Origin: a virus
Reading direction: 5' to 3' (one strand)
Virus record (IMG/VR): IMGVR_UViG_3300010885_020390
Location: 1-20,554 of that record
Length of the DNA: 20,554 bases
The notes under the pieces are model-generated. The model saw only the letters and a program-made list of their open reading frames with translations. It searched no databases and was not told where the DNA came from. A program made the position numbers and the translations under genes. Positions 14,066-19,869 of this stretch are shown one piece after another (position 1 is the first letter of the stretch; the number at the start of each line of letters is the position of its first letter).

Positions 14066-14413
14066 AAATTTGATAAATACGATTTATTATTAAGCTTTAA
14101 TCCTTGCGAGATTTTTACACATTTTGGAGTTACTGAAATGCATGGACTAAGTTTTGAAGATTGTCAATTACGTTCCAATACAACAGAAAGCGCATACATA
14201 GCAGGCTTCTGCAACTTAGACCCAAATGGGAAAATTTTTGTCTTTATTAACCTATCAAGATGTACAGATGACATTCACACAACGGGCTTAGTCATGCACG
14301 AAATGATTCACTGTTCATTTGATCTACATACAGATGAAGAAGAATTGATCACTTGGGCAGAAAAAGAAACCTACAAAAATGTTAAAATAATTAAAAAAAG
14401 TTTGTTGTATTAG
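14054..14413 (+). CDS. HExxH zinc-metalloprotease-like protein
   Basis: The 119-residue protein contains a zincin signature: MHEMIHCSFDLHTDEEE (His82, Glu83, His86), with Glu96-97 or His92 as candidates for the third ligand. It starts directly after the endolysin stop. The N-terminal half contains beta-like LLLSFNPCEIF and GKIFVFINLS segments. It has no signal peptide or membrane anchor. The role is open: it could cleave peptidoglycan-linked proteins during lysis or act on a virion or host protein. The motif is short, so a non-proteolytic use of the HExxH cannot be ruled out. Confidence 0.55.
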   Translation: MQEFKFDKYDLLLSFNPCEIFTHFGVTEMHGLSFEDCQLRSNTTESAYIAGFCNLDPNGKIFVFINLSRCTDDIHTTGLVMHEMIHCSFDLHTDEEELITWAEKETYKNVKIIKKSLLY

Positions 14414-14432
14414 TTTTAATTGTGTATATTTG
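14405..14432 (+). promoter_or_regulatory. Bacteroidota-type promoter for the small-gene operon
   Basis: TTG at 14405-14407 is 17 bases before TATATTTG at 14425-14432, matching the Flavobacterium-type consensus TTG...TAnnTTTG. It lies in the 47-base gap before the gene at 14461, with the transcription start expected near 14438. No other promoter this good was seen between 1 and 14400. Confidence 0.7.
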
Positions 14433-14454
14433 TAATATATAACAATTAAAACTA
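14411..14454. promoter_or_regulatory. Perfect 13-bp inverted repeat enclosing the promoter -7 box (operator candidate)
   Basis: TAGTTTTAATTGT (14411-14423) is the exact reverse complement of ACAATTAAAACTA (14442-14454). The 18-base spacer holds the TATATTTG box. The arms are about 31 bases apart centre to centre, close to three helical turns, as expected for a dimeric or looping repressor site. Only the right arm would be in the mRNA, so this is more likely a DNA operator than a leader hairpin. Confidence 0.55.
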
Positions 14455-16004: not shown

Positions 16005-16034
16005 TTATTAACTTTACCGCTCATGGTTTAGGTT

Positions 16035-16068
16035 CTGCGATTCTCGAAAGGGGGTCGCAGTTTTTTTT
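16035..16068 (+). terminator. Strong intrinsic terminator closing the small-gene operon
   Basis: CTGCGATTCTC (16035-16045) pairs with GGGGGTCGCAG (16050-16060) through 11 pairs including G-U, capped by a GAAA tetraloop at 16046-16049. Eight T residues follow (16061-16068). It is the most canonical terminator in the window. Confidence 0.9.
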
Positions 16069-16084
16069 GGGAAATATTTAAAAA
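16069..16084 (+). repeat. Left arm of perfect 16-bp inverted repeat
   Basis: GGGAAATATTTAAAAA starts directly after the T-run of the terminator. Its exact reverse complement is at 16314-16329, 229 bases further on. The GGGAAA start is shared with the iteron-like copies between the arms. Confidence 0.85.
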
Positions 16085-16313
16085 TAGCAAAACTAAAAGT
16101 TTCCCGTTTTATAACAAGTTAAAAGTTTAATAATTAAATAGTTAAATCAAAAAAAAAATATTTATAAAAAAAAACAAATTATATAGACCCTATACTATAC
16201 CGTAAAAAATTATTTTTTTTCTGAAAAAAAGTTTAAAAGTTTCCCGATTGGTTTAACTTACTATATATCAATAAATTACAAGGGAAACTTTAGGGAAACT
16301 TTTGCTTTATGGA

Positions 16314-16329
16314 TTTTTAAATATTTCCC
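16314..16329 (-). repeat. Right arm of perfect 16-bp inverted repeat
   Basis: TTTTTAAATATTTCCC is the exact reverse complement of 16069-16084. It lies about 65 bases upstream of the promoter at 16373-16404. Confidence 0.85.
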
Positions 16330-16372
16330 GAAAATTAAGCAAATGTAATTTATATTTAATTTTAAATAAATT

Positions 16373-16404
16373 TTGTTTTTATTAGTAAATTATTTGTATA
16401 TTTG
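16373..16404 (+). promoter_or_regulatory. Bacteroidota-type promoter for the replication operon
   Basis: TTG at 16373-16375 (within TTTTG) and TATATTTG at 16397-16404 are separated by 21 bases, at the long end of what Flavobacterium promoters allow. The -7 element overlaps the first copy of a TTTGTAAACGTG repeat. Transcription would begin near 16410, giving a leader of about 100 bases before the nuclease ATG at 16514. Confidence 0.55.
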
Positions 16405-16474
16405 TAAACGTGTTAGATCTCATACATAGTAACACTAAAGGTATTAGCCCTATCAATTTGTAAACGTGAGATCT
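16401..16474 (+). repeat. Direct repeat TTTGTAAACGTG...AGATCT in the leader
   Basis: Copy one is TTTGTAAACGTG at 16401-16412, two bases, then AGATCT at 16415-16420. Copy two is TTTGTAAACGTG at 16457-16468 followed directly by AGATCT at 16469-16474. The copies are 56 bases apart. They could be repressor sites or duplicated leader elements. Confidence 0.75.
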
Positions 16475-16498
16475 TTACACTTTGATGGGGCTTTTTTA
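16446..16498 (+). promoter_or_regulatory. Composite hairpin with U-tract, attenuator-like leader terminator
   Basis: AGCCCTATCAA (16446-16456) pairs with TTGATGGGGCT (16482-16492) over 11 bases, with T residues continuing to 16497. Within it TGTAAA (16459-16464) pairs with TTTACA (16474-16479) as a second stem. The hairpin sits 3' of the promoter and 16 bases before the nuclease start, so it would terminate the transcript in the leader unless relieved. AGATCTCA (16415-16422) could pair with TGAGATCT (16467-16474), offering an alternative fold. Confidence 0.6.
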
Positions 16499-16513
16499 TT
16501 TAAATTAACAATA

Positions 16514-17443
16514 ATGAATAATTTTAAATTTGTTAGAAGAGCAACCGAGAGAGATCTTGAAATTAGAAAATCAAGAATTGATAAATCTCAAAACAAAGCT
16601 ACACTGGATCAGCTTCAAAAGATTTCAGATTTAATAATTAAATTACATGATGAATATTATGAAATTCAATATAAAGAGTGGATTAATAAAATCACTTTAC
16701 AATATGAGGAGAAAAAATTTAACTATGAAATTAATACTGATAAGTTTGATAGAATTGTTGAAAGCATAAAAAATGGAGAGCAACCTAAATGCAATTGTCA
16801 AAGTGATATTATTTATCATAATACTCATTTTGAATTGTTAGGATGTAGAAATTATAATGATACTAATTTTGAACATTTTAAAATGTATAGACCTGAAAAA
16901 AGTAGAATGAGTTTAGAACAAAGGCTTTTTGAATATCCTTTTGAAGTTAAAAAACATTATTTATCTGATATTTGCAAAGCATTATCTATTAAAGTAAAAG
17001 CTTCTGATTTATTTGAATTTTTAATTTTGAATAAAATAAAACTTTGGAGAAATGATATTAATAGAGAGTTTTTTTACACTGCTAGAGATGCTCAAGAATT
17101 ATCTAGGAAAAGAGAAAATCTTATTTATTCTGAGCTACAAAAAAAATATAAAAAAATAGAAAAACAATTAGTAATTTCATATCAATATAATTACGAGAAT
17201 TTTATTAGGTTTGCTATTCCAGATGTAATTGTGTTTGATAATAAAAATATAATTATCTATGAACAAAAAAAATCAATAGAAAATATTAGTTTTCTACAAA
17301 CAGAATTATACGTTGACTTAATTAAAGAAATGGTTGACGATTCTTTTAATGTAATTGTAAAATTTGTTATTGAAGAGGATTATCCATTTATGCCTGATTT
17401 TGTAAATAAACATGATATATTAACCTTAAAAACTTTATTATGA
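16514..17443 (+). CDS. PD-(D/E)XK nuclease-like protein with topoisomerase-type Cys cluster
   Basis: The start is set at the ATG at 16514; an in-frame GTG at 16466 lies inside the leader hairpin. The 309-residue protein has a charged helical N-terminus (1-85). PKCNCQSDIIYHNTHFELLG with Cys93, Cys95 and Cys111 followed by RNYND resembles the topoisomerase C4 zinc ribbon, though one Cys seems to be missing. Residues about 203-285 read like a PD-(D/E)XK core: helix YSELQKKY (Glu207), AIPDVIVFDN (Asp237), IIIYEQKKS (Glu250, Lys252), then the TELYVDLIKEM helix. It overlaps the primase-helicase by ATGA. Replication, recombination or nicking at the adjacent repeats is plausible. I do not recognise a named family. 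Confidence 0.6.
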   Translation: MNNFKFVRRATERDLEIRKSRIDKSQNKATLDQLQKISDLIIKLHDEYYEIQYKEWINKITLQYEEKKFNYEINTDKFDRIVESIKNGEQPKCNCQSDIIYHNTHFELLGCRNYNDTNFEHFKMYRPEKSRMSLEQRLFEYPFEVKKHYLSDICKALSIKVKASDLFEFLILNKIKLWRNDINREFFYTARDAQELSRKRENLIYSELQKKYKKIEKQLVISYQYNYENFIRFAIPDVIVFDNKNIIIYEQKKSIENISFLQTELYVDLIKEMVDDSFNVIVKFVIEEDYPFMPDFVNKHDILTLKTLL

Positions 17444-19869
17444 TAGATTATGCTTACGACTTATTGAGTGAAGGTCTTAATCCCTTGCCATTAAAACACA
17501 ATAAAGCTCCAATGCTTGAAAAGGGACACAATTACCTTTATGAGAAAGTGGATGAAAACGATATTGAAAAGTTATTTATTAATGCTCAAAAAATTGGCAT
17601 AGCTTGTGGATCTGTTTCAGATGGGTTTTATTGTTTAGACTTTGATAAACACAACGGTGAAAACATAGATGTTATTTACGATGCATTTATAAGCCAACCT
17701 TACATTTATTCTTTTATTGAAGAGGGTAAAATGTCTGTTTATAAAACAATGGGGGGTGGATATCATATTTATTTTAGATACACTAAACAAGTTTTAAGCG
17801 GTGAAGTTTTTTCATTTTGGGATACTAAGTCTGTAATGATTGAAATACGTGGAAACGGTCAATATTGCGCTTGCTATCCAAGTGAGGGCTATACTCATTT
17901 AACAGGAGTTGAATATTTAAAACTAACTGAAATAGATTCTGAAAAAGAATGGCTTTCAATAAAAGATTTTGCTCATTCGTTTAATCTTTATAAAGAGTTA
18001 GTAAGCAAAAATAAAATAAGTACCAACGATAAAAAATGGGCGGATTCATGGAAAATTGACACACCTGATGGTAAGTATAATTTAGAGTTTGAAAGCGAAG
18101 CAAAAGAAATATTATCAAAAGCAGGATGGCAAGTTACTGAACAAAAAGATATTGAATATTGGACTAGACCAAACAAAGATAGTAAGGATGGTTTTTCAGC
18201 AACGTTTGGGCATTTTAAAGGTATGTTCTATATTTTTTCTGAAGATGCTTCATGTAGACCTTTTAATGCTAGACAAGCCTATTCACCTTTTAATATACTT
18301 ACAGAATTAAAGTATGATGGTGATTGGAAACGGGCAAAGGATGAGTTAAGGAAACGTTTTAACATGGTCGATAACGAGGAGTTTTGGAGCAAAAATGAGA
18401 AGGGTAATTATTCACTTAACAACAAAAGATTTAAAGATTTTTTAGAAGCTAATGACTTTTTTAAAAATTCACCAAATGAAGATAGTACATTTGACTTTAT
18501 ACATAAAGATGGTATTTTCTTAAAAATTGTTTATGAAAAAGACATCAAAGATTTTGTTATTGATTGGATTGAAAAGAACCAATGCGATGAGGGAGTTTTT
18601 AATTTAATGACTGGTAACTTGAAGTTTTTTAAAAGAGATTATTTGTCTTTATTAAAATCAAAACCAATTAAAACATTAAAAGATACATCAACAGAATGCT
18701 ATTCTTTTTATAAAAATTGCATTTTAAAAATAACAAAAGATGAAAAAAAGATATTAAGTTATTCCGATATTGATTTAGCTATTTGGCAGGATCAAGTAAT
18801 TAATCGTGACTACTCTCCTTATGATCATCACCAAGCGGAATATAGAAAATTTATCTGGAAAATATCAGGTGAAAATGTTGAAAAATATAAAGCTTTTCAA
18901 AGTGTTATTGGATATTTAATGCATGGTTATAAAAATAATTCTAACAATAAAGCAATTGTTTTTAACGATGAAATTATCAGCGAAAACCCTAATGGACGAA
19001 GTGGCAAGGGTATCTTTTGGAATGCCTTAAAACATTTGCGAAAAGTTCAATCTTTGGATGGCAAAAACTTCGATTTCAATAAGCCTTTTCCTTATCAAAA
19101 TGTTTCAACAGATTGTCAACTTTTAATCTTTGACGATGTTAGGAAGAATTTTAATTTTGAGAATTTGTTTAGTGTAATTACTGAGGGTATAACGATTGAA
19201 TACAAGGGTAAAAATTCAATAAAATTAGACGTTACTGAAAGTCCTAAAATAATGATCACGACTAATTATACAATTAATGGGGATTCAGCTTCTTTTTTAG
19301 CACGAAAATATGAGGTTGAAATGAGCAGTTATTTTAATGATAAATTTACTCCTGTTCAGGAATTTGGGCATCAACTTTTTAACGATTGGGATAAAGATGA
19401 ATGGTTAAGGTATGATAATTATATGAGTGAATGCGAAAAAATTTATTTGAATAGAGGATTAATTGAAATGCCTTTAAAAAATCTTAATTTCAGAAAATTA
19501 GTAAATGATATTAGTGATGAAATGCATACTTATTTTCATGGTATTATTGAAAACAATGAATGGATGAGTGTAAAGGATGTTTATGATAATTTTTTGATTA
19601 ACTATCCAGAAATGAAAAACAAAAATATTACTCAAAATATAGTGACTCGCAACTTAAAAAAATTCTGCGAATATTACAATTGTATTTATGAAAACATAAC
19701 TAGTCATGGTGCTTCAAGAATTAAACTTACAAAAAAAATATTAATTGAAGAACCACAAGCTGAAGAAATAATAGCTGAAGAAACACCGCAAGTCATTGGT
19801 AACAGACTCGTTAAAAATGAAGTAGAGGAAGCAAACGAATGGGATTTACTTGATAAAAAAGTATTATGA
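17440..19869 (+). CDS. Primase-polymerase/SF3 helicase fusion
   Basis: The 809-residue protein combines the two enzymes that start phage DNA replication. N-terminal PrimPol (PF09250-like), residues about 1-190: LDFDKHNGE with Asp67 and Asp69 as metal ligands, MGGGYHIYFRY with His109, and MIEIRGNGQYCACYPSEGY with Glu135 and Arg137. A linker follows (about 190-440). C-terminal superfamily 3 helicase, about 450-690: Walker A NPNGRSGKGIFW (Lys523), Walker B LLIFDDV (Asp565-566), motif C PKIMITTNY (Asn609) and a probable arginine finger at Arg622. The C-terminal 100 residues contain acidic repeats. The ATGA overlaps at both ends indicate an operon with the nuclease and the methyltransferase. Confidence 0.9.
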   Translation: MIDYAYDLLSEGLNPLPLKHNKAPMLEKGHNYLYEKVDENDIEKLFINAQKIGIACGSVSDGFYCLDFDKHNGENIDVIYDAFISQPYIYSFIEEGKMSVYKTMGGGYHIYFRYTKQVLSGEVFSFWDTKSVMIEIRGNGQYCACYPSEGYTHLTGVEYLKLTEIDSEKEWLSIKDFAHSFNLYKELVSKNKISTNDKKWADSWKIDTPDGKYNLEFESEAKEILSKAGWQVTEQKDIEYWTRPNKDSKDGFSATFGHFKGMFYIFSEDASCRPFNARQAYSPFNILTELKYDGDWKRAKDELRKRFNMVDNEEFWSKNEKGNYSLNNKRFKDFLEANDFFKNSPNEDSTFDFIHKDGIFLKIVYEKDIKDFVIDWIEKNQCDEGVFNLMTGNLKFFKRDYLSLLKSKPIKTLKDTSTECYSFYKNCILKITKDEKKILSYSDIDLAIWQDQVINRDYSPYDHHQAEYRKFIWKISGENVEKYKAFQSVIGYLMHGYKNNSNNKAIVFNDEIISENPNGRSGKGIFWNALKHLRKVQSLDGKNFDFNKPFPYQNVSTDCQLLIFDDVRKNFNFENLFSVITEGITIEYKGKNSIKLDVTESPKIMITTNYTINGDSASFLARKYEVEMSSYFNDKFTPVQEFGHQLFNDWDKDEWLRYDNYMSECEKIYLNRGLIEMPLKNLNFRKLVNDISDEMHTYFHGIIENNEWMSVKDVYDNFLINYPEMKNKNITQNIVTRNLKKFCEYYNCIYENITSHGASRIKLTKKILIEEPQAEEIIAEETPQVIGNRLVKNEVEEANEWDLLDKKVL

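Follow-up and report, generated by a model that had tools for sequence, protein, structure and literature searches.

A candidate iteron-type replication origin and a structured leader RNA upstream of a primase-helicase gene in Bacteroidota tailed phages

Layout of the locus

The window, meaning the whole stretch of DNA analysed here, is a linear virus record of 20,554 bp that encodes portal, tape measure, protease, endolysin and replication proteins. The parts of its replication module are as follows.

16035..16068, plus strand: intrinsic terminator for the cluster of small genes upstream, and left border of the module (11-pair stem with 6 G-C, then T8)
16069..16084, plus strand: left outer arm, GGGAAATATTTAAAAA, an exact inverted repeat with 16314-16329
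16096..16105, minus strand: iteron 1, AAAGTTTCCC, one of four copies in 20.5 kb
16188..16231, plus strand: conserved core, CCCTATACTATACC...TTTTTTTTCTGAAAAAAA, between the array halves; presumed melting and priming region
16236..16245, minus strand: iteron 2, AAAGTTTCCC, adjoining the core
16282..16291, plus strand: iteron 3, GGGAAACTTT, 46 bp past iteron 2
16293..16302, plus strand: iteron 4, GGGAAACTTT, a tandem copy of iteron 3 whose start lies 11 bp further on
16314..16329, minus strand: right outer arm, TTTTTAAATATTTCCC, an exact inverted repeat with the left arm
16372..16404, plus strand: Bacteroidota-type promoter of the replication operon, TTTG-N21-TATATTTG, read from the sequence
16405..16500, plus strand: structured leader RNA, two hairpins with complementary loops and U6
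16514..17443, plus strand: 309-aa protein, probable PD-(D/E)xK nuclease (IPDVIVFDNKNIIIYEQKK motif, by eye), a cargo gene
17440..19869, plus strand: Prim-Pol/SF3 helicase with a C-terminal winged helix (PF09250, DUF5906), the proposed initiator

The original prediction described six copies of a GGGAAA/TTTCCC motif, and all six are present, starting at 16069, 16100, 16240, 16282, 16293 and 16324; the only other copy in the window starts at 14228, and none of 2000 dinucleotide shuffles of the region contained six. The longer form, said to occur four times with two copies per strand, is found at exactly that number (AAAGTTTCCC at 16096 and 16236, GGGAAACTTT at 16282 and 16293). All four exact copies in the 20,554 bp lie inside the array and none elsewhere, which is the opposite of the even spread that had been named as evidence against an origin. 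The perfect 16-bp inverted repeat at the borders is likewise real: an exact inverted repeat of at least 16 bp arose in just 6 of 2000 dinucleotide shuffles of the region, and its arms sit inside a longer inverted repeat of 42 nt, which is imperfect, with 83% complementarity (16064-16105 and 16293-16334). The description of the repeats as a nested, mirrored pattern holds for the strand order and for the two outer pairs, which are in register, but not for the inner copies at 16236 and 16282, which are not placed as mirror images. The surroundings are as predicted, noncoding and very AT-rich (GC 0.23 across 16005-16465), with the array lying between the terminator and the promoter. Two features, the conserved core with its T8 and A7 tracts and the structured leader RNA, had escaped the earlier description.

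The promoter boxes are TTTG at 16372-16375 and TATATTTG at 16397-16404, and they are named as such on the established Bacteroidota promoter consensus. A second promoter of this type lies elsewhere in the window (TTTG at 14401, TATATTTG at 14425), ahead of a 60-aa ORF. A perfect 12-bp inverted repeat, TAGTTTTAATTG (14411-14422) and CAATTAAAACTA (14443-14454), stands on either side of that promoter's -7 box and looks like an operator.

The primase-helicase is an 809-aa protein in which the winged helix occupies residues 691-765 and the DxD, Walker A, Walker B and sensor-1 residues are invariant. A first model built from 22 sequences had a pLDDT of 63 and was replaced by a deeper AlphaFold2 model, with a pLDDT of 71 overall and mostly 75-97 in the helicase and the C-terminal winged helix. 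The best PDB structure matches to this model are AsfvPrimPol, the African swine fever PrimPol, and the SaPI5 primase-helicase (E 1.1e-11, TM 0.60 by target for the latter); a profile search of the protein against PDB sequences returned no match. Within the wider helicase family the primase domain has been exchanged, the window group carrying PF09250 and most of the distant members BT4734-like_N, which replaces the Prim-Pol domain in 23 of 35 sampled distant proteins (alignment A2, 35 helicases). The C-terminal end varies too: residues 745-809, which form the wing and tail, are unrelated between the window's clade and its sister clades, at 7-20% identity, whereas overall identity to the nearest clade is 77-79%.

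Conservation and switching of the array among relatives

Scanning IMG/VR with the window primase yielded 44 relatives. The exact motif is limited to four near-identical contigs (the window, L005, L006 and L007, with primases 95-97% identical) and was not found in relatives below about 95% primase identity. In IMG/VR the tandem form of GGGAAACTTT is restricted to the window's clade and one unrelated pair of GC-rich phages, which have it as a 10-bp tandem repeat downstream of a tail gene, in 3 copies (L164 9654-9683) and 4 copies (L166 7930-7969); I regard this second occurrence as a coincidence. Absence from relatives with the same replication genes had been named as grounds for rejecting the origin, and for the exact motif such absence is indeed what is seen. 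The array itself, however, is in place: all 36 loci with upstream sequence have a homologous noncoding region directly 5' of the primase-helicase operon. Thus, it is the layout that is conserved and not the letters.

In the relatives that were read, the parts follow the same order of terminator (in most), repeats, core, repeats, promoter and leader. A terminator-like stem with a T-run stands at the matching place in most close relatives, TAnnTTTG is present at the promoter position in most relatives, and outer arms of the GAAATATTT type are seen again in sister clades. Each clade has its own repeats, which are GGGAAACTTT in the window's clade, GTCACTTTTTAC and GTAAAAATGAC in L008-L014, CCGAAATATTT with ATTTTTACGGGTTAA in the L019 clade, and ACTTTACGGGTTAA and CCGTAAAGTTT in the L024 clade. 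On a finer scale, nearly identical phages can differ at individual sites in the right half of the array (L008, L010, L012/L050 and L036), which are replaced or inverted, GTAAAAATGAC versus GTCACTTTTTAC, as though the exchange had gone site by site.

The noncoding region is kept whatever gene intervenes before the primase-helicase, be it the nuclease, an HNH gene, another gene or none. The 309-aa protein, which has no Pfam or PHROG match, is encoded by a gene that in relatives is swapped for HNH or other genes, or is absent. L006 is instructive in this respect, as it retains the window's array yet differs in its leader, and a NUMOD4-HNH gene takes the place of the nuclease, and so the array goes with the primase-helicase and not with the nuclease. 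Such NUMOD4-HNH-AP2 genes, which resemble homing endonucleases, lie between the origin leader and the primase in L006 (7507-7998) and in L013 (3912-4412).

Relatives judged complete by their terminal overlaps are 30.8-33.2 kb long. In two of them, G001 (32.6 kb) and G002 (30.8 kb), the array gap is the sole noncoding stretch of at least 140 bp. The original prediction had also proposed a GC-skew analysis, in which a minimum elsewhere would count against the array. That analysis leaves the origin neither supported nor refuted: both in the window and in the complete relatives the skew stays positive from end to end of the gene strand and never reaches a minimum. The complete relatives carry all their major genes on a single strand, and for these reasons the minimum was dropped as a test.

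An alignment-based scan extended the family to at least 554 distant relatives, 80 of which were kept, and five were found in Bacteroidota assemblies. Their helicases are about 45-50% identical to that of the window, and most of these more distant lineages have arrays with other iterons upstream of the gene (GGTACACA, AGCACAAA, ACTTACCT, CGTGCCGC, GGGCACAT, TTCCACAT, ATACACAT and more), with 2-8 exact copies within the array compared with 0-2 elsewhere. Across 40 independent lineages the repeat sequence switches and the left and right halves still match. The two halves share 6.7 8-mers within a locus and 1.6 across loci (0 of 5000 permutations), whereas an array half shares 1.9 with other pieces of the same locus. 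This matching is uneven, as halves share fewer than two 8-mers in 8 of the 40 lineages, it exceeds 95% of same-locus controls in just 21 of the 40, and motif enrichment per locus is not significant in many loci.

In the lineage comparison the core reads CCCTATA(C)TATA with T- and A-tracts behind it, and it occurs once per genome. CCCTA(T/C)N or CCCTTAG is found on the coding strand in 19 of the 40 lineages (shuffle mean 2.6, maximum 6) and on the opposite strand in 3. Under unrelated motifs there also recurs a four-site geometry, in which 46-51 bp separate an inverted site from a tandem pair spaced at 10-13 bp, with values of 46/11 in the window, 46/12 in L131 and L147, 47/12 in L116 and 51/13 in L118; it was spotted post hoc, and the values are descriptive. 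The tandem spacing of 10-13 bp, equally descriptive, is about one helical turn in several lineages with different iterons. Upstream of the homologue in MW202828, a deposited spring phage, the order of parts is alike by eye.

The leader RNA

The leader consists of a hairpin (16410-16435) followed by a terminator hairpin (16446-16492) with U6, and the loop GATCTCA (16416-16422) is complementary to the apical loop TGAGATC (16467-16473) of the terminator hairpin, so that the two may kiss. It has an MFE of -26.4 kcal/mol (z -3.9). About 40 relatives have such a kissing-loop terminator leader at the matching place; in relatives the letters of all stems differ and pairing is kept at constant positions. 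In an alignment of 11 leaders, which somewhat favours structure as the sequences were chosen and the structure was read from one member, 93.8% of cells pair, both sides change in 21 of 29 pairs, a level of covariation that 0 of 500 shuffles reached, and the loop-loop helix is 97% paired.

A covariance model made without the loop-loop helix gave one match per locus in 649 kb of loci, always this leader; the window's own match has an E of 4.6e-8, with the window locus in the training set. In 250 Flavobacteriaceae genomes the model found a single match (L167 312-413), and it lies directly 5' of an unrelated phage replication initiator, phrog_11233 (DnaD/O-like). Against Rfam the best hit to the leader is a sub-threshold NsiR1 (18.6 versus 39 bits), and the relatives' leaders have none; the RNA is apparently undescribed, with no Rfam family. 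A second leader type, in which the partner of the terminator loop is placed downstream of the U-run, just ahead of the start codon, is seen in L024, L026, L037, L038, L116, L118, L134, L142, L144 and L147. Its pattern is AGGGG, a hairpin, AAAGG, the loop and CCTTTCCCCCT, then the U-run.

As the leader of the operon ends in an intrinsic terminator, the dose of the initiator is probably set there. The RNA is most likely an attenuator or a small RNA that controls initiator supply, and its presence ahead of an unrelated DnaD/O-like initiator gene might make it a general replication-control RNA of these phages.

The array as a replication origin

What does the array do? I consider it quite likely that 16069-16329 is an iteron-type replication origin of a Bacteroidota tailed phage. 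The locus has short repeats found nowhere else in the window (four exact GGGAAACTTT and the two outer arms), an AT-rich stretch between them suited to unwinding, and spacing that is helically phased in a descriptive sense. The original suggestion of an origin bound by a phage initiator therefore stands as the best-supported reading, given that position, layout and core of the array are conserved. Its remark that no described origin has this exact motif also agrees with the searches made here. A DnaA-dependent origin was considered and set aside, as strict DnaA boxes (TTATNCACA) number 0 in the window array and occur in 3 of 64 arrays overall.

The reader of the iterons is most likely the adjacent Prim-Pol/SF3 helicase. 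It is the only gene present in almost every locus (62 of 64, in loci chosen by this gene), and since loci were gathered through the helicase gene, the association of array and helicase is partly by construction. Once helicase identity is accounted for, the partial rank correlation between shared iterons and the C-terminal winged helix is +0.02, and the best among other segments of the protein is +0.16 (residues 1-60). With values so close to zero, the reader could be another protein; no neighbouring gene clearly accompanies the GTACACA-type iterons.

Several copies of the initiator, most likely the Prim-Pol/SF3 helicase encoded downstream, would bind the iterons, and the mirrored strand order would seat two assemblies face to face across the core. 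The CCCTATA and T-tract/A-tract core might then melt, allowing helicase rings to load and the Prim-Pol domain to prime, so that initiation would be two-sided. The promoter on the right would drive the initiator operon through the terminator-ended leader RNA.

Other explanations of the array deserve consideration. It could be a regulatory site, as it lies directly upstream of the promoter at 16372-16404, lineage-specific operators are frequent in phages, and the covariation test did not single out the primase-helicase as reader. However, the array does not overlap the promoter, its near end being 43 bp and its far end about 300 bp away on the upstream side, a conserved AT-rich core with T- and A-tracts separates its halves, and no conserved regulator gene stands alongside, only the primase-helicase. 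In G001 and G002, moreover, there is no other noncoding gap that could house an intergenic origin. A purely regulatory role thus seems unlikely. Even less probable is an origin read as a DNA structure, a cruciform or stem-loop, instead of through iteron sequence. This reading draws on the 42-nt inverted repeat and on plasmid pRN1, for which recognition of this kind has been proposed, whose initiator has the same domain order and whose stem-loop origin is essential (PMC4234260). Yet the inner sites are out of mirror register and include tandem direct repeats, sites in sister clade B are replaced or flipped singly in a way that breaks left/right pairing, and the motifs recur at helical spacing.

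Finally, the array might serve another DNA transaction, as an attachment site, a packaging site or the remnant of a transposon or MITE, and this I find the most improbable of all. A core with inverted arm-type sites does resemble attP in outline, but a search for tyrosine integrase (PF00589) found none in 10 records and was positive in 14 of 14 controls. TerL is located on the far side of the replication module, in G001 at a distance of about 11 kb. The inverted repeats at both ends recall a MITE, but no target-site duplication was seen, and relatives without these arms have a homologous core, meaning that nothing was inserted.

If the array is indeed an iteron origin, its closest parallel would be that of the PICIs, in which two iteron sets flank an AT-rich region immediately 3' of rep (PMC6092414). 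The SaPI origins, compared here by their published descriptions, likewise have two sets of short iterons around an AT-rich stretch, iteron sequences that vary between members, and an adjacent self-loading SF3 primase-helicase with a C-terminal DNA-binding domain, as the window has in PF09250, DUF5906 and the winged helix. Relatives of the SaPI5 primase-helicase, the protein that the window model matches, bind iterons through their C-terminal domain (PMC7581432). In contrast, the window array is 5' of the gene and its promoter, its family has the conserved CCCTATA and T/A-tract core, and a kissing-loop leader RNA follows. The genomes are those of Bacteroidota tailed phages of about 30-34 kb and not integrated satellites: the 10 records lack PF00589, and the phages have their own capsid, portal, tail and terminase. 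The layout is already known from PICIs (PMC6092414), and it is the position, the core and the host group that would be new.

The pRN1 protein ORF904 shares with the window protein an archaeo-eukaryotic primase, an SF3 helicase and a winged helix (PMC4234260). The pRN1 origin, a stem-loop that lies 3' of the gene, is explicitly without iterons, and the authors of that work proposed stem-loops for phages with the same domain order (PMC4234260). The window family departs from that proposal and does not fit a pRN1-type origin, as an iteron array lies upstream of the initiator. In the Vibrio cholerae PLE, with its ori and RepA and the phage nuclease Odn, origins are also modular and iterons switch with specificity (PMC8263062). 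There, however, the initiator is of the RepA_N type without helicase or primase, the iterons are semi-palindromes of about 30 bp, and iteron co-variation with the DNA-binding domain of the initiator was shown (PMC8263062), which was not found in the window family.

The P4 ori/alpha system is alike in pairing a helicase-primase initiator with an iteron origin. In satellite phage P4, pairing and termination of a leader RNA also govern the alpha operon, and the P4 iterons and crr probably differ from the window array in sequence and layout. The P4 alpha primase is of the Toprim type (PMC4234260).

Taken more broadly, the cassette may be widespread in Bacteroidota tailed phages as a 5' PICI-style origin with lineage-switching iterons and a fixed core, its initiator operon gated by a new class of kissing-loop terminator RNA with a general part in replication control, a proposal that I hold tentatively and with slightly more doubt than confidence. 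The phage family, with at least 80 loci sampled, brings this order of enzyme domains together with mirrored iterons that switch between lineages and enclose a conserved core. Its matched origins and enzymes would offer a natural series for learning how a self-loading helicase reads its origin and how it changes it, and the leader RNA, absent from Rfam, would offer a new handle on how phage replication is timed or limited. The phage with this array is virulent-looking. In its complete relative G001, a protein with a sigma-70 region 2 domain (L064 12905-13462) is encoded 5' of the terminase gene.
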